This document shows, one piece after another, positions 1 to 13,802 of a stretch of 64,000 nucleotides of DNA; positions within the stretch are counted from its first letter, which is position 1; each line of letters starts with the position of its first letter. Made by a program: the position numbers and the translations under genes. The DNA is from an uncultured Synechococcales cyanobacterium. Its GTDB lineage: Bacteria; Cyanobacteriota; Cyanobacteriia; CAIUCS01. Location: assembly GCA_903897715.1 (NCBI GenBank), contig CAIUCS010000056.1:1-64000 (forward strand), in the 5' to 3' direction. The notes under the pieces were generated by a model. It did no database searches. It was given only the letters and a program-made list of their open reading frames with translations, and was not told the origin of the DNA.

Positions 1-966
1 GGAGCAAGTGGGTGTATTGGTCACTATATTGTGGATCAATTAATTCATGAAACAAATCACGAATTATTTTTATTAGTACGCAATCCTGATAAGTTCCGGT
101 TAGATGTGAGCCACCTCCCCCGAATCCATTTAATCCAAGGGGATTTGAAGCAAATTCAAGACCATCAAAATCTTCTATTCACCATGGAGATGGTCATTTT
201 AACTGCGGCAGCTTGGGGGGGAGAAGCGGAAACCTACGAGATTAATGTCACTAAAACTCAAACCCTAATTGACAGTCTCAATCCAGCAATTTGTCAACAG
301 ATTATTTACTTTTCAACCGAAAGCATTTTAGGACGAACCAACCAACTTCTCCCCCAAGCTGCCGAGATTGGCACGGATTATGTGCGTACTAAAAGTCTTT
401 GCTTGCAAAACTTAAGCCAGCACCCCCTACAAGACCGCATTACTGCCCTATTCCCCACGTTAGTTTTTGGTGGTGATGGTCAGAAACCCTATTCACACAT
501 TTCTAAGCATCTACCTGATGAAATCCGATGGATTAATTTAGCGAAATGGTTTCGGATTGATAGCAGTTTCCATTTAGTTCATGCCCAAGACATTGCCACT
601 GTGGTTGGTTATTTCATCAATCATCCGCCCCAAGCCCCCGGGTTGCGTAAATTTGTGCTGGGTAATCCTCCTCAGACCGCTGACCAGTTGATTGAAGAAG
701 TCTGTACTTACTTCAACAAAACAATCTGGTTTCGCCTCCCCCTCACAGCGGGGTTTGCTAATTTTTTAATTAAACTATTACGGTTAGAAATGGCTCCGTG
801 GGACCGGTTCTGTATGAACCACCGACATTTCATTCATGACGAGGCGGTTAATCCGGCTACCTTTAACTTACCAGTGTATTGTGCTACCGTTGCTGATATC
901 TTAAGGTCACGGGGTATCCCCCGTAGATCCTCCCCTAAGCCAGACGCGCCAAAACCTGTTGGCTAA
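1..966 (+). CDS. NAD-dependent epimerase/dehydratase (extended SDR), 5' end outside window
   Basis: The reading frame is open from base 1 and starts inside the Rossmann fold: the first codons read GASGCIGHYI, the Gly-rich NAD(P)-binding loop, so only a few N-terminal residues are missing. An ESILG segment and a YVRTK stretch correspond to the catalytic Ser/Thr strand and the Tyr-x3-Lys pair of extended short-chain dehydrogenases. Later parts (HLVHAQDIATVV; FVLGNP) match the substrate domain of nucleotide-sugar epimerases and related dehydratases. The substrate cannot be told. A GTG at base 31 also opens the frame but would cut the cofactor loop. The 3' end overlaps the convergent gene on the other strand by 32 bases. 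Confidence 0.8.
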   Translation, partial: GASGCIGHYIVDQLIHETNHELFLLVRNPDKFRLDVSHLPRIHLIQGDLKQIQDHQNLLFTMEMVILTAAAWGGEAETYEINVTKTQTLIDSLNPAICQQIIYFSTESILGRTNQLLPQAAEIGTDYVRTKSLCLQNLSQHPLQDRITALFPTLVFGGDGQKPYSHISKHLPDEIRWINLAKWFRIDSSFHLVHAQDIATVVGYFINHPPQAPGLRKFVLGNPPQTADQLIEEVCTYFNKTIWFRLPLTAGFANFLIKLLRLEMAPWDRFCMNHRHFIHDEAVNPATFNLPVYCATVADILRSRGIPRRSSPKPDAPKPVG

Positions 967-1612
967 GCCACTGGATGATGGGATTGGGAGATAGAACATG
1001 ACTAAATCCAAACCGAAGCAGGATTGGCAGCGATCGCCTTAGGGATTGACGGCTTAAATGTCGTATTAGTATTCCTAGGAGCATGGTTACCCCCAATACA
1101 TACCATGACTTAATAAAATAATTAAATGCCAACACTGAGGAGAGACAGCACACAAGGAAGGCAAGCCAATCCGTAAATTTATTGATAAAACGACGGAAAT
1201 CCCCACATAACTTGTCAGTCAACTGGGTCAATAGCCAGTGATGGACTTGATTTAATTTTAGGCAGTCATCGGAGGTATGCAATAATTGGCGATCGATTTG
1301 ATGGAGTACATCTCCATCCATGGACACCACAGTACGCAATACCAATCGGTCTTCAAAATGGGTACAAAAGGTTAAACCAGACTGGACATTAAAACTTGAA
1401 TCGGGTTCAGATAAACCACCAGTATCCCAAACAACTGCTTGACGAAGTTGAGTGAGTATTGAATCTGAAAAGAAAATTGTTTGGTTTTGTTGACAACACT
1501 TTAAACCCACTTCCACTAATTCTCGATCCAGATAAAACCAAAATTGCCCATCTTTTGAAACCACACAGTTAGCCAGAAGTTGAACATTAAGGGTGGACTG
1601 TGTTCTAGTCAT
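935..1612 (-). CDS. Unnamed membrane-anchored protein with DGDV motif
   Basis: 225 residues, not recognised. The N-terminal ~145 residues are soluble-looking and include RTVVSMDGDVLHQI (DGD at residues 99-101). A hydrophobic stretch follows (about 148-185, WLAFLVCCLSSVLAFNYF and VLGVTMLLGILI), giving two membrane segments, and the tail is basic. ATG start lies 2 bases after the stop of the upstream gene (1615-2298), so the two are probably translated together. The DGD[VI] segment resembles one in that neighbour and in the proteins at 10506-11561 and 11788-12225. Function unknown; membrane location is inferred from hydrophobicity only. Confidence 0.7.
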   Translation of the reverse strand: MTRTQSTLNVQLLANCVVSKDGQFWFYLDRELVEVGLKCCQQNQTIFFSDSILTQLRQAVVWDTGGLSEPDSSFNVQSGLTFCTHFEDRLVLRTVVSMDGDVLHQIDRQLLHTSDDCLKLNQVHHWLLTQLTDKLCGDFRRFINKFTDWLAFLVCCLSSVLAFNYFIKSWYVLGVTMLLGILIRHLSRQSLRRSLPILLRFGFSHVLSPNPIIQWLSQQVLARLA

Positions 1613-1614
1613 CT

Positions 1615-2298
1615 CTAGAAAAGGTTAAAACGAAATTTTTTTAATAAGTCCACTACAAAATTTAGCAGTCCACGCCACTGAGCCTCCCCGGTCGCTACTC
1701 CTTGACTATGAATGGTTAATATTAATTCTCGTTTGTCTGAAGAAGCGTCAAATAATTTCTCATGGAAACGATTGACTACATCCCCATCCAATTGAATGAC
1801 TGTTTGAGCATAGATTAAATCAATATCGGCTGATTTGGGGTCGTCACTATCGTATGCACTTTTTTGTTCTCGGATTTTACGAAGAGCCCTTAAAAACTCA
1901 GGATTCTCAAATACTACGTCGAGTTTATCCATAGTATTCGGTTCTGGCAGGGTAGCAGTAGGGTCATGAATCACCGCTTTATAATGCCGTTCTAAATTTT
2001 GTCTTAGTTTTAAGTAATTTTCACGACACTTACTCCGCACCTCACCAGTACAATCTTCAGCGATATGGTTTTTTTCAAACCATTCTTCTGTGATGGCATA
2101 AATATCTTCGTAGGCTGCCAACGGGTTGAACTTAGAACCACTGATACGGGCAACAATCATCGTGTTGACCTCCAACGCGGTGATGTCATTTAGAACATCC
2201 CCCAAGGAATTTAAAAAACCATCCACCTTTTCATTTAAGGTTTTTGGTTTCTTCTGGGAGAAAACCAAGTCATCCTGGGTATGGGAATCATGGGTCAT
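1615..2298 (-). CDS. Unnamed protein of a DGD[VI]-motif family
   Basis: 227 residues from the ATG at 2298; a TTG 21 bases upstream is possible. Not recognised. An N-terminal helix (LGDVLNDITALEVNTMIVARIS) lines up with the start of the protein at 11788-12225 (IGDALKIALSEAIELKITTW). The C-terminal part has AQTVIQLDGDVVNRFHEKLF (DGD near residues 171-173) followed by a hydrophobic, basic end (LLNFVVDLLKKFRFNLF) that could sit on a membrane. The middle is charged and rich in helix-forming residues. It is the second gene of a probable three-gene operon read 4240 to 935. Function unknown. Confidence 0.7.
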   Translation of the reverse strand: MTHDSHTQDDLVFSQKKPKTLNEKVDGFLNSLGDVLNDITALEVNTMIVARISGSKFNPLAAYEDIYAITEEWFEKNHIAEDCTGEVRSKCRENYLKLRQNLERHYKAVIHDPTATLPEPNTMDKLDVVFENPEFLRALRKIREQKSAYDSDDPKSADIDLIYAQTVIQLDGDVVNRFHEKLFDASSDKRELILTIHSQGVATGEAQWRGLLNFVVDLLKKFRFNLF

Positions 2299-2371: not shown

Positions 2372-4240
2372 TTAAGGTGAAGGTGAAACAGGTTGGGGAA
2401 TATGATTGCCAATTAAAGAATTATCCGCATTAAACACAGAGATGGGAATTTTAACAGTGTTACTGATGGATTCCAATTTAGATTGCAACCCTTCCAGTTG
2501 TTGTTTGACTTGATTCTGACGGGTGGAGTCATTTCGACTCGCTGTAATCAAACCACTAAACTCAGACGTTAATTTTACGTTAATTAAGTCGGTGGTTGCA
2601 GTAAACGTACACATTCGGGGAGTTGCAGCACAGGCATCATTTAATTGATTTTGAACTTGACCAATTGAATAATTAACCCCTTGAAGAGTTGCCCCATCTT
2701 GGGTGGCATTGGGTTCCGATGGTTCACCATTTATTTTTTGTCGATAGGTCTTTAGAAGTTGTTGTGCTTCGCCATGGACTGCCGTGCGGGAAGGAATTTG
2801 AGACAAAATCGCAATGGCTGCTTGCCAATTCTGACGGGCTAATTGTAGACTGTCTTCAGATTTAGAAGTCTGGGATTGGATATCAGCCTCCTGCCCTGTC
2901 TTTTTACCTTGCTCAAGTCGCTGTTGAGAGAGTAATTCCAATGCTACCCGTTGTTCAATCATGGATTGGTTGACTTGATAGTCTTTTAATTTAGATTGGG
3001 CATACTGATAAACTGGACTGTCGGTGGGGATATTTTTTAATGTGGCGATCGCTCCCTTCCAGATTTGACTCAGGGTACGCCAGTGTTCAATGGGATGGGG
3101 TGCATTTTGGCTTTTGTTCGCCGCATCGCCAGCTTGACTTAATGCTTGTACAACCAGTTCAATATCCGACAATTGTTGTCGATACTTTTCTAAAATGGGA
3201 CTGGCTGGGTTGTGGGCATTAGACCAGAAGGGAATCTCCTGCAATTTGCTAATGGCTTGTTCCAAGTTGGTTTTTGCCTGAATAATATCTCGGGGTGATT
3301 TAACAGATTTAAGTTTCTCAATGACTCTCCCTTGGATTTTCTGAGCATCAGGGATGATGGAGCAGTCACCAAAACTACAGGGTCGAGTTGCAACGTAGGT
3401 GGCTGCCACTGAAGCGATGGCTACCCCAACTCCAACTGGAATCCAAGGAAATGATCTGCGCCGGGATGGGGACCTTGGGGGGGCGGAGGGCACCGCATCC
3501 CTCTTGGGCGGTTCAATTACCTGACTAGTCGGTTCAGGTTGTTTCACCGATTTGGGTAAACTTTTGGCGTTGGAGTCTATGGAAAAAAACTGAGAAATCT
3601 CTGTATCATTTTCAGGTTCTAGATTTGGACTATCTATATTCAAGAACGATTCATCCAAAAACATCTGGTCTTCAGAATGATGGCTTGGCTGATAGGGTAG
3701 ATTAGGGTCGTAGGGTTGTTGATTAGAACTAGGAATGATACCATCATCTATTTCCGCCATGAATGCATCTAACATTTCCAGCCCACTGGGAGAATTGGTG
3801 GGGATAGGACGGGATTCATCATCCAGTCTAGGCGGTGATTGAAATGGGCTAGAGGGTGGTTCAGACTCTAACCCATGGGTTGAACCCACATCAACCGTGA
3901 AGGTTTGCACCTGGTAGGGCTGTCGTTCACCTGCCACCCGTAAATACATTCGTACTGTTAGATCGGTTGCTCCCGTATCGGGAATGATAGTGGACATTGC
4001 CTCGATTACATTGGCAATGGGGGGCAAGGTGCGGATGGTTTGCTCAATTACGTTAAAAACTGTTTGTGAGTCTGGAATTTCTTCTTTTTTGTGTTCAGCT
4101 AAAATCAATAATTCTGAACGATGGAAATTAGCTTGGATTTTTAAGGGAATTTGACTTAACAGTGTCCATTGTTGTTCAAGCCACCAGGCTAGCCTAAATA
4201 GTTCTTTGTTTAACTCTAACTGATGCGCTGCTATGGTCAT
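2372..4240 (-). CDS. Unnamed single-pass membrane protein with helical repeats
   Basis: 622 residues from the ATG at 4240; a TTG 33 bases upstream is an alternative. Not recognised. The first ~120 residues form a compact domain. Residues ~125-260 are Pro/Ser/Asp-rich linker. Next comes a basic cluster (SRRRSF) and one transmembrane helix (WIPVGVGVAIASVAATYVAT, about 275-295), which by the positive-inside rule leaves the N-terminus in the cytoplasm. The C-terminal half holds three related helical units with the pattern A-x3-L-x2-IP-x(8-14)-A-x3-L-x2-Y, for example AIATLKNIPTDSPVYQYAQ. It leads the probable operon with the two following genes; the gap to the next start is about 70 bases. No enzymatic motif seen. 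Confidence 0.7.
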   Translation of the reverse strand: MTIAAHQLELNKELFRLAWWLEQQWTLLSQIPLKIQANFHRSELLILAEHKKEEIPDSQTVFNVIEQTIRTLPPIANVIEAMSTIIPDTGATDLTVRMYLRVAGERQPYQVQTFTVDVGSTHGLESEPPSSPFQSPPRLDDESRPIPTNSPSGLEMLDAFMAEIDDGIIPSSNQQPYDPNLPYQPSHHSEDQMFLDESFLNIDSPNLEPENDTEISQFFSIDSNAKSLPKSVKQPEPTSQVIEPPKRDAVPSAPPRSPSRRRSFPWIPVGVGVAIASVAATYVATRPCSFGDCSIIPDAQKIQGRVIEKLKSVKSPRDIIQAKTNLEQAISKLQEIPFWSNAHNPASPILEKYRQQLSDIELVVQALSQAGDAANKSQNAPHPIEHWRTLSQIWKGAIATLKNIPTDSPVYQYAQSKLKDYQVNQSMIEQRVALELLSQQRLEQGKKTGQEADIQSQTSKSEDSLQLARQNWQAAIAILSQIPSRTAVHGEAQQLLKTYRQKINGEPSEPNATQDGATLQGVNYSIGQVQNQLNDACAATPRMCTFTATTDLINVKLTSEFSGLITASRNDSTRQNQVKQQLEGLQSKLESISNTVKIPISVFNADNSLIGNHIPQPVSPSP

Positions 4241-4333
4241 GCCCCTGTCCCTGCCCTCTTTAGACGATGACAATAAGTATTTTGAAAATATTGATTGTTA
4301 TTATACTATTGATTGTCATTTCATACATCGGGT

Positions 4334-6577: not shown

Positions 6578-7105
6578 GTGATAGAGAAAAAACCCAATCG
6601 CGACCTGCCCCAAATCAACGAACGCATCCGGTTCCCTAAAATCCGGGTAATTGATATAGATGGCTCCCAACTTGGCATCCTTTCCCCCCGCGAAGCCGTA
6701 CAATTGGCTGAACAAAAGGACTTAGATTTAGTATTAGTCAGTGATAAAGCCGATCCTCCAGTTTGCCGGATTATGGATTATGGCAAATTTAAGTTTGAAC
6801 AAGAGAAAAAGGCTCGGGAGGCAAAGAAGAAGCAGCATGCTGCTGATGTAAAAGAAGTAAAGATGCGCTATACCATTGAGGATCATGATTACCATGTACG
6901 GGTCAATCAAGCAGAACGATTTCTCAAGTCTGGAGATAAGGTTAAGGCGACAATTATGTTTCGCGGGCGAGAAATTCAACATAGTGATTTGGCTGAAGAG
7001 TTGTTGAATCGCATGGCAGCTGACCTCCAGGAGTTTGGTGAAGTACAACAAGCCCCTAAAAAAGAAGGGAGGAATATGATGATGTTAATTGCTCCCAAGA
7101 AATAA
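6578..7105 (+). CDS. infC: Translation initiation factor IF-3
   Basis: Binds the 30S subunit, checks the initiator codon-anticodon pair and keeps subunits apart. 175 residues, the normal bacterial length. The N-terminal domain is typical ([20 protein letters not shown], then [21 protein letters not shown]), followed by a Lys-rich linker ([10 protein letters not shown]) and the C-terminal domain ([32 protein letters not shown]). The start is GTG: a TAA stop lies two codons upstream in frame, so no earlier start exists. A strong hairpin follows the stop. Confidence 0.97.
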
Positions 7106-7114
7106 TTTTCATTG

Positions 7115-7154
7115 AAATAAGGATGGGGGGCACTAGCGCCCCCCATCCTTATTT
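7115..7154 (+). terminator. Intrinsic terminator of infC
   Basis: Perfect 17-bp inverted repeat: AAATAAGGATGGGGGGC at 7115-7131 pairs with 7138-7154 around a 6-base loop. It lies 9 bases after the infC stop. The A-rich left and T-rich right ends let it work for either strand. Confidence 0.85.
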
Positions 7155-7163
7155 AATACTCAA

Positions 7164-7273
7164 TCCTTGGGGGCATCTCATCTTCCCTGCCCTCACCCTA
7201 AATCCCAATCCCTTGCCCATTTTGGGAGAGGGGGTTGGGGAGTGAAGGCATATTTCAAAACTAGGATGCACTC
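7164..7273 (+). repeat. Family C inverted-repeat element, copy 1 (degenerate)
   Basis: The interior reads CCCTCACCCTAAATCCCAAT, then TTTTGGGAGAGGGGGTTGGG, a G/C-rich imperfect palindrome. The right end CAAAACTAGGATGCACTC resembles the right end of the better copy at 31219-31350. It lies between the convergent 3' ends of infC and psbQ. A 70-codon open frame across it is repeat-derived. Confidence 0.65.
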
Positions 7274-7334
7274 AATACTTTTTTGGCATTGCCAACATAT
7301 CTACTTCCCGCACAATAAACGGCTAAACTGGTTT

Positions 7335-7787
7335 TTAAGACTTAGGCAACAGGCTAAAAAAATTATCGTAAAGCTTTAGAAAAGCAGCATAATTGGCATC
7401 AGCAGCTTGAACATTATTGTCTTGGGCAGCACGATCCAAAGACTCTAAGGCTTCCGCTGCTTTTTTAGCAATTTGCCGTGCTTGCTCCTGATCCTTCACC
7501 AACAAATTACGAGTTACCCGACTTAACCGTGCCCGTAACTCGCCAAAAGGACCCCGGATAAAATTAGAAACATGGATCCAATCTTCTGCTTCCACCAAGG
7601 CTCCTAGTTCAGGGAGGCGATCGCCCAATGCTTGTACATTGGCAGCATATTTTTGCAGCGTATCTAGTTGATCAGATGTATAAACTGCAGGGGACTGACG
7701 GGCAGCATGGGCAGGAGTCCCCAAACCAATTACAACGGTAATTACCAATGCGAGAAGAATAACAATAAAAGAATGAAAGCGTTTCAT
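7335..7787 (-). CDS. psbQ: PsbQ-like photosystem II lumenal protein (CyanoQ)
   Basis: 150 residues with the PsbQ four-helix pattern (YAANVQALGDRLPELGALVEAEDW; FIRGPFGELRARLSRVTRNLL; a final helix ending FFSLLPKS). Family members sit on the lumenal face of photosystem II and stabilise the oxygen-evolving complex. The N-terminus is a signal peptide: MKRFHS, a hydrophobic core, then TPAHAARQ. Many cyanobacterial PsbQ proteins are lipoproteins with a Cys at the cleavage site. Here there is no Cys, and AHA-AR reads as a signal peptidase I site, so the mature protein is probably not lipidated. Confidence 0.9.
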   Translation of the reverse strand: MKRFHSFIVILLALVITVVIGLGTPAHAARQSPAVYTSDQLDTLQKYAANVQALGDRLPELGALVEAEDWIHVSNFIRGPFGELRARLSRVTRNLLVKDQEQARQIAKKAAEALESLDRAAQDNNVQAADANYAAFLKLYDNFFSLLPKS

Positions 7788-7826
7788 AACCTTAAATGAC
7801 CAAAACTATCTAAATCCAATGCACTA

Positions 7827-9155
7827 TCATTGTAAACATGCTTGGATTAACATTGGAATACCATCCACAATTTGAATTGGTTTGTTGACTTGAGACTGCA
7901 CCTCCGACAAGGTCATGTCATCCAAAAAACGATCCTCGCCATGTTTTAACATGACTGACGGCAGTAGGATTTTATCTCCCAATTCCCTTCCGTGCAACCC
8001 GTGAATCAGGTCATATCCAGTTAATAAACCAGTGACAGTCAAGGATTGCCCCCAATACTCACTTTGAAGGGGAGCTAGTTGTAGGGATAATCCTTGTACT
8101 TGATTGAGTCGATGTACAATTGGCTGAAACGCCTTTTCTACTGCATTACCCACCACCCAAGTTACACTACGGGGTTGAGCAGTTTGACGGGGTAATTGAC
8201 GAGCAGCTGATTGGAACTGTTTCAGAAATAAGCGAATTGATCCAACCCCATTTCCAATCTGGGGATAATCTTCATAGTGGCTTGCGGCAGGTAGTTCCTG
8301 TTGAGCAATTAAAAACCATTCGTCAGCTAACCATACTAAAGTAGTCCCCAATTGTTGACGAAATTGTTCCTGTAAAGATTGAACTTGTTGAATGACAATC
8401 ATTGCTTGTTCAGGGGTAACAGGACATAACTCATCTTCAGCAGGACGAAATTGGGTCAGCCCAACTGGAACCACTGCAATTGAAGCAACGGTTGGGTTTT
8501 CTAGATTATAGAATTGGGATAAATCCAGTAAAGTACGCTCCAAATGGATCCCATCATTAATCCCTGGACATAGAACCACTTGTCCATGGATTTGTAGTTG
8601 TCGTGCTTGAAACCACTTTAATTGATCCATGAGAACCCCGGCTCTGGGATTTTTTAACAGACGGACACGAATTTCAGGGTTTGTGGCATGAACTGAGACA
8701 TAAAGGGGAGATAATCTCATGTGTTCAATTCGTAACCACTCCCGTTCAGTTAGATTTGTTAGGGTAAGATAACTGCCATACAAAAAACTGAGTCGATAGT
8801 CATCATCTTTTAAGTAGAGGGTTCCCCGTTTACCCGGCGGTTGTTGGTCAATAAAACAAAAGGGACAGCCATTATTACACTGAATCAACCCATCAAATAA
8901 AGCCGTTTCAAACTCTAATCCCAGATCATTATCGTAGTCTTTTTCAATTTCAACCTCATGGGTTTGCCCTGCCTTATCCACAACAACAATGGTGAGTTCT
9001 TCCTCAGCACATAAGTATTGATAGTCAATTAAATCCCTTGGTCGCTGACCATTGATTGAAAAAATAGCATCCCCCTCCTCTAGCCCCAAATCTGCTGCAA
9101 TGGAATGGGGGATGACCCTAGTGATACGGGCAGGCTGAATGGCGGATATACCCAT
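7827..9155 (-). CDS. DUF512-family PDZ / radical-SAM-like Fe-S protein
   Basis: 442 residues. Residues 1-60 form a PDZ-like domain (ITRVIPHSIAADLGLEEGDAIFSING). The core then carries C93-x3-C97-x2-C100 in CNNGCPFCFIDQ, the radical-SAM type of 4Fe-4S ligand set. The segment LYLKDDDYRLSFLYGSYLTLTNL and the C-terminal domain match the DUF512 family, which is universal in cyanobacteria. The reaction is not established. Single gene, with flanking genes on other strands or unrelated. Confidence 0.88.
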   Translation of the reverse strand: MGISAIQPARITRVIPHSIAADLGLEEGDAIFSINGQRPRDLIDYQYLCAEEELTIVVVDKAGQTHEVEIEKDYDNDLGLEFETALFDGLIQCNNGCPFCFIDQQPPGKRGTLYLKDDDYRLSFLYGSYLTLTNLTEREWLRIEHMRLSPLYVSVHATNPEIRVRLLKNPRAGVLMDQLKWFQARQLQIHGQVVLCPGINDGIHLERTLLDLSQFYNLENPTVASIAVVPVGLTQFRPAEDELCPVTPEQAMIVIQQVQSLQEQFRQQLGTTLVWLADEWFLIAQQELPAASHYEDYPQIGNGVGSIRLFLKQFQSAARQLPRQTAQPRSVTWVVGNAVEKAFQPIVHRLNQVQGLSLQLAPLQSEYWGQSLTVTGLLTGYDLIHGLHGRELGDKILLPSVMLKHGEDRFLDDMTLSEVQSQVNKPIQIVDGIPMLIQACLQ

Positions 9156-10505: not shown

Positions 10506-11561
10506 TTACGTTTTTTGGGGGGGTTCAAAAAAAATTTCGTCCCAATTAAGTTCATCTAAATTCAAGGAATTATGATGATCATCAATTGTTTCCCCTGGGT
10601 TTCTATTGAGTTCCATAGGGGAACCTGCTTGAACTGGTGGGAGGTTAAGGGTGGCTAAATCAGTTGGGTTTGCATCTGTTTTAATGGGCGGATCCGAGCC
10701 AAAGAGGGTTGAAAACTGTATATTATCAGAAAGTCCAACCTCAAGCATGGGTAAAGTTTCAGGTTTAAAGGTTAGCGAACTGGTACTGGTAAATTGTGAG
10801 TCGGTGACGTTTTCTTGAAAGGTTTTTGGATCATCAAATAGCTCTGCTGGAAAGTCTATGATTTCAGGATCAACCGTTAAACTAGTTTGGGGAAGGGCAT
10901 CAGAACTAATAGATGGATCCTCCAAGGGCTGATTGTTTTCAGTCATCCATTGCTTCGGTTGAATATCTCCTAAGTCAACCGAGTCCCCCCATAACCGACC
11001 AGAAGTAGGAGCAATCCCGTCTTCAACCAATGCAGATGAAGAATTTGAGATCCTCACTAAGGGGGGGGATATGATGGTGGATCCTGATGGCGACGGGGTT
11101 TCAGGTTGTTGTGCAAAGGGAACAGTACTGGGGAATTCTTCAGTTTCTGTTGTCATTGGATCATCGTTTACATCTGAAGCTGTAGTATCCATCAGAAAGC
11201 CAAATAACTCTTTCAAGGCTCCTAAATTTTGATGAATAATTGCTTGCCCTCGCTTGACCTGATTGAGGTGAAATTCTCGTAATTCATCATATGTTTTATC
11301 CCGAATAAACCGACTTCCAATTTGATTGTCAATCTTTCCATTCACAATATTGATCCGAGTATGCATCCGATGGCTGGGGTCAACATGGCTGGGGTCAACA
11401 TTGTGGGCACTGGATGGCTTCTCTTCACTATGGTCAGCCATCGCAACCCAGGTAGTTATTTCCAATTCAATTGCTTCGCCAAGAGCAGTCTTGATGGCTT
11501 CCCCTATGCTGTTGAGATTACCTAACTGCATTGCGTGCTGGAAATCATGACTAGCTGTCAT
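10506..11561 (-). CDS. Unnamed protein, paralogue of 11788-12225 with long acidic tail
   Basis: 351 residues. The first ~120 align along their length with the 145-residue protein encoded just upstream: LGNLNSIGEAIKTALGEAIELEITTWV, then RMHTRINIVNGKIDNQIGSRF, then ELREFHLNQVKRGQAIIHQN. The DGD of the relatives is NGK here (74-76). The remaining ~230 residues are Ser/Pro/Asp-rich, apparently disordered, ending in the acidic-aromatic LNLDELNWDEIFFEPP. A 12-base tandem duplication gives VDPSHVDPSH at 55-64. Both genes face the same way, 226 bases apart, consistent with tandem duplication. Function unknown. Confidence 0.7.
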   Translation of the reverse strand: MTASHDFQHAMQLGNLNSIGEAIKTALGEAIELEITTWVAMADHSEEKPSSAHNVDPSHVDPSHRMHTRINIVNGKIDNQIGSRFIRDKTYDELREFHLNQVKRGQAIIHQNLGALKELFGFLMDTTASDVNDDPMTTETEEFPSTVPFAQQPETPSPSGSTIISPPLVRISNSSSALVEDGIAPTSGRLWGDSVDLGDIQPKQWMTENNQPLEDPSISSDALPQTSLTVDPEIIDFPAELFDDPKTFQENVTDSQFTSTSSLTFKPETLPMLEVGLSDNIQFSTLFGSDPPIKTDANPTDLATLNLPPVQAGSPMELNRNPGETIDDHHNSLNLDELNWDEIFFEPPQKT

Positions 11562-11787: not shown

Positions 11788-12225
11788 CTAGGGGGGTGTT
11801 TGTGAAGCCTTTCCTGGGGCGATCGCCTTTGGCAACGAGCTAGCAGGTAAGCTGGTCGATTGAGATAGTTGCTTCAGGGAGCCGAGCAATATCGTAAATA
11901 ATTGCTTTAAGCTTTCCAAATTCTGTTGCAGGATGGCATGACCATCTTCTACTTGTTGTAAATGAAATTTCCGCAATTCAGTATAGGGACCATCCCCGAC
12001 AAACAGACTACCAACTTCGTTCTCAATATCCCCATCTAAAATATTAATCCGGGTTTTCATCCGATATCCTGGCAAGCTCTCATCAATTGGTGAAGTTCTA
12101 GTTTCGTCCTCAGGGGAAACCCAAGTTGTAATCTTTAGTTCAATTGCTTCACTCAGGGCTATTTTTAGGGCGTCGCCAATGTTGCCAATTTTAAGTTGTT
12201 CCTTAAAGTCATCACTAGATGTCAT
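11788..12225 (-). CDS. Unnamed protein of the DGD[VI]-motif family
   Basis: 145 residues, not recognised. An N-terminal helix (IGNIGDALKIALSEAIELKITTWV) precedes a strand-rich middle with KTRINILDGDIENEVGSLF (DGD at 64-66) and a long helix (ELRKFHLQQVEDGHAILQQNLESLKQLFTILLGSL). It is paralogous to 10506-11561 and shares both the N-terminal pattern and the DGD segment with 1615-2298. No signal peptide or transmembrane helix. Function unknown. Confidence 0.7.
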   Translation of the reverse strand: MTSSDDFKEQLKIGNIGDALKIALSEAIELKITTWVSPEDETRTSPIDESLPGYRMKTRINILDGDIENEVGSLFVGDGPYTELRKFHLQQVEDGHAILQQNLESLKQLFTILLGSLKQLSQSTSLPASSLPKAIAPGKASQTPP

Positions 12226-12444: not shown

Positions 12445-13485
12445 TCAACTCTCTTCAGCTGATATTTCAATTCGTCGATTCCGTTGACGGTTTGATGAGT
12501 TGGTGTTGGGGGCTAATGGGTGATTAGCACCATGACCAACCACAACCATCCGATACTGACCTTGAAGAACTTTAGCAAGGTGATGGCGAATCAATTCAGC
12601 CTGTTGCAAAGAAATGTCACGGTTTTGTACAGGGGTGCCACTATTATCAGTATGGCCGTTGATTACGATTACTTGGTTCTTGTATGGAAGTAAGTTAGGC
12701 AACACACTTTCTAATATGAATGGACCAGAAGGACTTAATGTGGCTTGGGAATCTGTAAATAAAGCGTCACTGGGCAGAGTAATTAACAAAGGTTGATGGG
12801 GGGCAAATGAATAGGTTTTAACTTGGACTGAGGTACTTGTAGTTCTGACATCCAAGTCAGTGGGTGATGATTCAGATGTATTTTCTGACTCAGATTGGAG
12901 ACGAGTCTCCAGTGTGTTCATTTGCTGAATAAGGCGACTCAATTCAGACTGTACTGTGTTGAGTTCATTCCCTAATCTTTTCTGCTGGTCACTCATGGAT
13001 GATTTGGGGGGTGGGGGAGGAATGGAGAGGTCTGGGGTGGTCACAATTCTTTTAGGAAGCATGGATTGAGAATCGCCGCTTAATGTTTTGCCAACCATAG
13101 CAATTCTGGGGGGAATAGTTTGTATGATTTTAATTGCTGTTCCAAACTGGCGTACTAAAACTTCTGAGTAGGGTAACTTGGGGTTGGGATCAGGAAAGAA
13201 GTGGGCGATCGCCATACCTGTTAATACTGCTAAGAATGCCGCACCACTCAACAAGGTTAACCGACTAAGATAAGCTAGACCAGTGAGGCATCGCTTGATT
13301 AATCTTTTTCGATAGCGTTTAGAACGATACCGCTGAACAACAGAAGGGGTGGGAGAGATGGGAGTAGAGGAAGCTTGGGTGGGTTTGGACGAATAAAACC
13401 GGTTTACCCTAACAGCTTCTACCTTTTGGGGTGGAGATGGAAGGGGTAAGTTGGGTTGTTGAGGGGAAGGACTCGCAGATGGCAT
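12445..13485 (-). CDS. OmpA-like C-terminal (peptidoglycan-binding) membrane protein
   Basis: 346 residues from the ATG at 13485; an in-frame extension to 13539 lacks a good start. Pro-rich N-terminus, basic cluster (RYRSKRYRKRLIKR), one transmembrane helix (LTLLSGAAFLAVLTGMAIAHFF), then a coiled coil (QQKRLGNELNTVQSELSRLIQQ). The C-terminal ~120 residues form an OmpA/MotB domain with VINGHTDNSG and NRQRNRRIEI, the elements that bind diaminopimelate in peptidoglycan. It probably anchors a membrane structure to the wall. Bases 13486-13802 upstream hold no gene that I can see. Confidence 0.85.
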   Translation of the reverse strand: MPSASPSPQQPNLPLPSPPQKVEAVRVNRFYSSKPTQASSTPISPTPSVVQRYRSKRYRKRLIKRCLTGLAYLSRLTLLSGAAFLAVLTGMAIAHFFPDPNPKLPYSEVLVRQFGTAIKIIQTIPPRIAMVGKTLSGDSQSMLPKRIVTTPDLSIPPPPPKSSMSDQQKRLGNELNTVQSELSRLIQQMNTLETRLQSESENTSESSPTDLDVRTTSTSVQVKTYSFAPHQPLLITLPSDALFTDSQATLSPSGPFILESVLPNLLPYKNQVIVINGHTDNSGTPVQNRDISLQQAELIRHHLAKVLQGQYRMVVVGHGANHPLAPNTNSSNRQRNRRIEISAEES

Positions 13486-13802
13486 TGTTTTAAAATAAAT
13501 AGACTCGTTATTTTGAAAGTTCAACAACAAGATTAACAATTTCTAAACGATGACTACTCTCGTTCAATAACTGGGTTGCCTCTACTCCACAGCCTTATAC
13601 ACTATACATTCCCTCCAGAGGAAAGGTAAAACCATAACCATTGGCTCGTTCTAACGATTGATTTTAATTTTAGTATACGTTCAATCCTAATTGAGAGATT
13701 CATTCCATCTCTGGTTGAGAAAATTATCAAATCTTCGTCATTTAGATTTAAAATTTGACCAATCCCCCTTCCGCTCCAGTCAATAATTAACTTGGTTTAT
13801 CT

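Follow-up and report, generated by a model that had tools for sequence, protein, structure and literature searches.

Introduction

It is known that YbaB has an alpha-beta-beta-beta-alpha topology, and that scaffolds of the PopZ type consist of an acidic disordered region and an oligomerising part. For cyanobacteria, filament-specific genes have also been listed (Stucken et al. 2010, PMC2821919). Here we compare with these systems four genes, called A, B, C and D, encoded in the window, by which we mean the whole stretch of DNA that was analysed (64,000 nt). Our main reading, to which we give a probability of roughly 0.4, is that their products, built on paralogous domains, may together form a scaffold that is tethered to a membrane and uses its acidic tail to recruit a client.

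Results and Discussion

Four genes of the window and their parts

A sequence-only reading of this DNA had grouped four ORFs by a segment around the residues DGD. All four are present at the coordinates listed below, every one on the minus strand, and the segments that had been picked out (TVVSMDGDVLHQ, TVIQLDGDVVN and TRINILDGDIEN) were found again, as was NGK in C. The genes and their parts are as follows.

935..1612, minus strand: gene D, 225 aa; DGD core and predicted C-terminal membrane segment(s)
1112..1168, minus strand: predicted transmembrane segment of D, residues 149-167; Kyte-Doolittle 19-residue mean 1.99
1310..1318, minus strand: DGD of D, residues 99-101
1615..2298, minus strand: gene A, 227 aa; DGD core interrupted by a helical insert
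1780..1788, minus strand: DGD hairpin of A, residues 171-173
1819..2154, minus strand: helical insert of A, about residues 49-160, at the junction of strand 1 and strand 2; AlphaFold helices at 59-150; its removal restores collinearity with B
10506..11561, minus strand: gene C, 351 aa; B-like core (residues 1-126) and disordered-looking tail
10509..11183, minus strand: low-complexity acidic tail of C, residues 127-351 (225 residues); 17% D+E, 3.6% K+R
11334..11342, minus strand: NGK of C at the DGD position, residues 74-76
11788..12225, minus strand: gene B, 145 aa; minimal core
12028..12036, minus strand: DGD hairpin of B, residues 64-66

Gene A would encode 234 aa if the upstream TTG is taken as the start, and 2 bp lie between the stop codon of A and the start of D. 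The window holds a split copy of the gene set, with A-D at 0.9-2.3 kb and C-B at 10.5-12.2 kb, 8 kb apart. A, B and C each contain more acidic than basic residues and D is about neutral; none of the four proteins is strongly basic.

Homology of the cores

Homologues were gathered from 291 cyanobacterial genomes and from named genomes, and were then aligned for profiles; named bacterial genomes were scanned with gene A of cyanobacteria only (a subset alignment of A). When we compared the proteins by pairwise BLAST, C proved to be the clear paralogue of B that it had been taken for (49% identity over 126 aa, E 2e-38). A and B were not linked (E 0.33), and A and D were linked marginally (E 1e-3 over 33 aa around DGD). 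Since pairwise BLAST misses A-B and barely joins A-D, the grouping of all four genes needed profiles.

First, profile-profile comparison of the shared core placed A-D, A-B and B-D above every null. The first family alignments gave E-values of 2.7e-6 for A-D, 3.1e-5 for B-D and 1.8e-4 for B-A, and the enlarged families gave 6e-9 for A-D and 5e-5 for A-B. The scores were 57-67 (A-D), 38-40 (A-B) and 36-38 (B-D) against a null maximum of 27.6 in 80 comparisons, which consisted of unrelated neighbour families, YbaB and reversed alignments; shuffled-column controls reached 21.3 at most. The profile of C scored 23-31 against A or D alone, which is near the null, and matched that of B at about E 1e-57. 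Second, the N-terminal pattern that had been proposed to be common to A and B ([LI]GD[VA]L, then E[VL]xT) turned out to be part of a longer collinear region. When the insert of about 110 residues was taken out of A, the A-B alignment ran unbroken over 90 columns from this pattern through DGD to a conserved His, and the score rose from 40 to 57.5 (E 5e-9); equal-sized deletions elsewhere gave 40 or less. Third, a six-frame search of 53 whole genomes with the D HMM gave eight weak secondary matches within the cluster (E 1e-5 to 0.01), two of them inside D; the other six fell in A, at its DGD segment (E 7e-4 to 0.01). Finally, a relaxed DGD motif was present in 106/110 A, 84/95 B, 31/46 C and 70/106 D proteins, compared with 9/1706 other ORFs. 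In all four families, the hairpin Gly at the DGD position is 99-100% conserved and the His about 22-24 residues later is 95-100% conserved.

These sequence comparisons identify B, C, A and D as paralogues with one small common domain, and about 360 protein sequences are joined into one family. The proposal of one core domain in four members with differing additions was thus borne out, the additions being a helical insert in A, an acidic tail in C and a membrane segment in D. The sequence-only reading had taken such additions for different effectors; to us the insert (about 110 aa), the disordered-looking acidic tail and the membrane anchor seem more like components of a single complex than like effector modules in their own right.

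Predicted fold and the additions to the core

AlphaFold models were obtained for B (pLDDT 85.8) and A (pLDDT 83.8). Both models show the same order of elements, namely helix(es), a strand, the insert in the case of A, a second strand, the DGD turn, a third strand and a long helix; because they agree on this order, DGD is assigned to the turn of the hairpin between strand 2 and strand 3. The modelled core fold, alpha-beta-beta-beta-long-alpha, is common to A and B, so the two modelled members have the same core fold and not different ones. The core of C would be tied to the fold of B through sequence, and that of D through the profile only.

When the models were searched with Foldseek, nothing significant was found in the PDB for A and B, nor among viral models for B. 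For model A, E. coli YbaB (1pug) topped the list by probability (0.33 and 0.21), with a TM of 0.42 by target and an rmsd of 3.4. Model B matched weakly to 1ybx, which we take to be a YbaB-family structure. The E-values of these YbaB-like matches were 3-6 (3.2 for 1pug) and are non-significant. We considered membership in YbaB/EbfC (PF02575) and rejected it: the topology is alike, but the Pfam model and the YbaB profiles give no match, and profiles run against 31 cyanobacterial YbaB sequences gave no match in the right register. Since the sequence profiles give no support, we do not claim YbaB membership for the core.

At least one hydrophobic segment was found in 95 of the 106 D proteins, and D is predicted to be membrane-bound. 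The C proteins are 279-1931 aa long, and their tails contain a median of 28% D+E versus 2.5% K+R; the tail of the window's own C is short and milder (17% D+E) than the family median. Repeated aromatic-acidic motifs of the WDDW/EDWG type occur in the C tails together with DPFA. DPFA was found in 21/46 proteins against 0.7 expected from shuffles, and WDDW in 16/46 against 0.2, counts that are partly non-independent because some C proteins are close relatives.

Conserved operon and neighbouring genes

When we surveyed genome neighbourhoods across cyanobacteria, a conserved operon emerged from 100 cluster-bearing loci, in which some genomes are counted twice via two collections. B/C-type genes, A and D form a single operon in 85 of the 100 related loci, and the order B-(C)-A-D is kept on a single strand, with no inversion or break across the 100. 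There were 45 BAD, 33 BCAD, 6 CAD and 7 AD loci, the remainder being partial (contig ends or C alone), and the median gap between A and D was -1 bp. The family had been described as scattered. This description did not hold up, since the relatives keep one B-(C)-A-D operon; the family is not scattered by nature, and the window, where the operon is split, is the odd case. Among the sampled genomes, a B/C-type gene accompanies A in 44/44 cases and D does so in 43/44, the exception being a genome that is 77% complete; nine genomes have B/C-type genes alone, with neither A nor D. C is absent from Nostocaceae and from the f23 family (probably Pseudanabaenaceae), so that the acidic tail is dispensable.

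Other genes lie close to the members. Directly upstream of A is a gene that we call M (2372-4273, minus strand, 633 aa), with a likely membrane segment and a helical-repeat-like region; it matched no Pfam family at cut-off, and it stands where C stands in other genomes. We considered M as a fifth member. Its relatives occur in 188/291 genomes with the best matches at other places, and M is thus not tied to the cassette. Just upstream of B, 12445-13539 on the minus strand encodes a protein that has an OmpA domain (Pfam E 9e-12) and, at its N-terminal end, a likely membrane segment; it was also rejected as a member, as it is not kept beside B elsewhere. By sequence inspection of the non-Nostocaceae loci (L088, L089, L096, L167 and others), 17 loci have a gene reading as maf near the cassette, and 14 have a small gene there that looks like a lipoprotein gene and may be PsbP-like. 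In Anabaena 7120, all3642-alr3647 had been guessed as the locus via an FtsH-like neighbour; this candidate was dropped, as the literature ties alr3646-49 to devBCA and a regulator.

A triad beside parA-parB in Azospirillum

When B was compared with plasmids by tblastn, it led us to Azospirillum megaplasmids. On one strand and in this order, they encode XRE-ParA, ParB, a homologue of B (profile E 6e-14), a homologue of A (E 1.6e-5) and a membrane protein in the place of D. This membrane protein contains IQPDGDVLV and matches D weakly (E 0.017); its identification as D is probable and is owed to its position, its motif and its hydrophobic segment, not to the score. Where annotation is visible, in Azospirillum, it reads hypothetical protein only. 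In the megaplasmid locus L222, the XRE-ParA and ParB genes occupy 6722-8597 of the locus and immediately precede the B-A-D triad. Three of the genes, namely B, A and probably D, form a module that is conserved across Cyanobacteria and Alphaproteobacteria. The Azospirillum evidence comes from one lineage (seven records, whose A homologues share at least 93% identity), and we therefore treat the ParAB link as a lead and not as a proven association. No ParA or ParB gene was found near the cyanobacterial clusters.

These loci and the predicted fold bring up the possibility of a membrane tether that faces DNA or the nucleoid, in which very divergent YbaB/EbfC-like dimer cores would make contact with DNA or with a partition complex, while D would tie them to the membrane and the polyanionic tail of C would act as a DNA mimic or competitor. 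The core topology as in YbaB, the rank of 1pug by probability for model A, the weak 1ybx match of model B and the parA-parB pair directly upstream in Azospirillum would all suit it. We nevertheless consider it unlikely, because the Foldseek E-values are non-significant, the 31 cyanobacterial YbaB sequences did not match in register, none of the window's four proteins is strongly basic, and Par genes are absent near the cyanobacterial loci.

Hosts and distribution

The named cyanobacterial hosts are Nostoc, Anabaena, Moorena, Symploca, Roseofilum, Spirulina, Coleofasciculus and Leptolyngbyaceae, plus one Aphanothece MAG; nearly all of them are filamentous. Distribution is patchy, B/C being present in 53/291 genomes and 22/130 genera. 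For comparison, hetR was found in 150/291 genomes, and many hetR-positive families are without the cassette; the two distributions match poorly, and hetR was therefore not kept as a marker of the same trait. The window's genome carries the cassette, and a search of it for hetR (PF03574) gave no match.

A module of the envelope or septum, working at the cell-cell borders of filamentous cyanobacteria, could account for hosts that are nearly all filamentous, for a membrane-bound D as predicted, and for the maf-reading gene being the commonest neighbour outside Nostocaceae (17 loci). The same survey makes such a module quite unlikely, given the patchy presence of B/C in comparison with hetR, the Aphanothece MAG among the hosts and the non-filamentous Azospirillum. 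When the cassette was compared with the gene list of Stucken et al. 2010 (PMC2821919), no correspondence was established, and none of those filament-specific genes could be linked to it.

Database searches

Searches of Pfam, NCBIfam, PADLOC and PHROGs gave no match for the family, a PDB sequence search with A and B gave none, and no viral or phage relatives were found. The DGD-core family is new in the sense that none of the described families or systems in the searched libraries was found to include it, and the earlier suspicion that no characterised family holds these proteins agrees with the sequence and fold searches alike.

A patchily distributed conflict system, either toxin-antitoxin or anti-phage, might show such a patchy presence, a variable accessory gene like C and a plasmid-borne copy as in Azospirillum; it is highly improbable in view of the empty PADLOC and viral searches, a gene order that is stable across genera, and proteins in which no catalytic domain was recognised. 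Convergence, with DGD as a common beta-hairpin turn in four unrelated genes, is nearly excluded: DGD is plausible as such a turn and pairwise BLAST fails to join A to B, but the profile scores above all nulls, the collinear A-B alignment, the His conserved in all four families and the common core of the A and B models speak against it.

Proposed mechanism and comparison with known systems

We return to the membrane-tethered scaffold as our preferred reading. The data show the core that the four proteins have in common, the coupling of their genes, the co-occurrence of A and D, the hydrophobic segment of D and the acidic tail of C; the assembly and its mode of action are inferred from these. 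In this scaffold, B, C, A and D would be paralogous subunits assembled into one hetero-oligomer, each contributing an alpha-beta-beta-beta-alpha domain with DGD in the hairpin and the invariant His in the long C-terminal helix. D would anchor the complex in the membrane through the predicted hydrophobic segment after its core. B and A would be soluble partners, most likely pairing with D and C via the sheet and the long helix. Where C is present, its long, very acidic, disordered-looking tail may form a multivalent arm that recruits a client. Because B-A-D lies beside parA-parB in Azospirillum, the DNA-partition machinery might be one plausible client there, and we put this forward weakly. Several observations weigh against the scaffold reading: Nostocaceae and the f23 family do without C, nine genomes have B/C-type genes alone, the tail of the window's own C is short and mildly acidic, the Azospirillum protein matches D weakly, its parAB linkage comes from one lineage, and Par genes are absent near the cyanobacterial clusters.

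A further suggestion, which we hold to be rather unlikely, is that of an undescribed cross-phylum scaffold, tethered to a membrane and composed of paralogous alpha-beta-beta-beta-alpha subunits, to which a giant polyanionic tail may be added. It would anchor a client or set its position, the client in Azospirillum being a ParAB-marked replicon. Such a scaffold would be comparable in function to polar or centromere-anchoring hubs and unrelated to them in sequence. Nostoc and Anabaena are genera with genetic tools and carry the minimal B-A-D, so the function is directly testable.

Compared with known systems, the DGD-core family shows likenesses and differences. The filament-specific genes of Stucken et al. 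2010 (PMC2821919) have similar hosts, namely filamentous cyanobacteria, and encode mostly hypothetical proteins, whereas the DGD-core family is patchy and occurs also in Azospirillum. PopZ may be likened to it in the way it works only, without any claim of sequence relation: in C a long acidic region is joined to a folded domain, and in Azospirillum the locus adjoins parA-parB. Unlike in PopZ, the folded part of C lies at the N-terminus and belongs to a set of several paralogues, and D is predicted to be a membrane protein. YbaB/EbfC lacks the helical insert, the membrane segment and the acidic tail found in A, D and C, respectively, and the window's genome has a separate YbaB gene besides the DGD-core genes; nevertheless, YbaB/EbfC shares with the modelled core the alpha-beta-beta-beta-alpha arrangement and a tight turn between strand 2 and strand 3, and among the structural neighbours of model A it ranks best, although the match is not significant.
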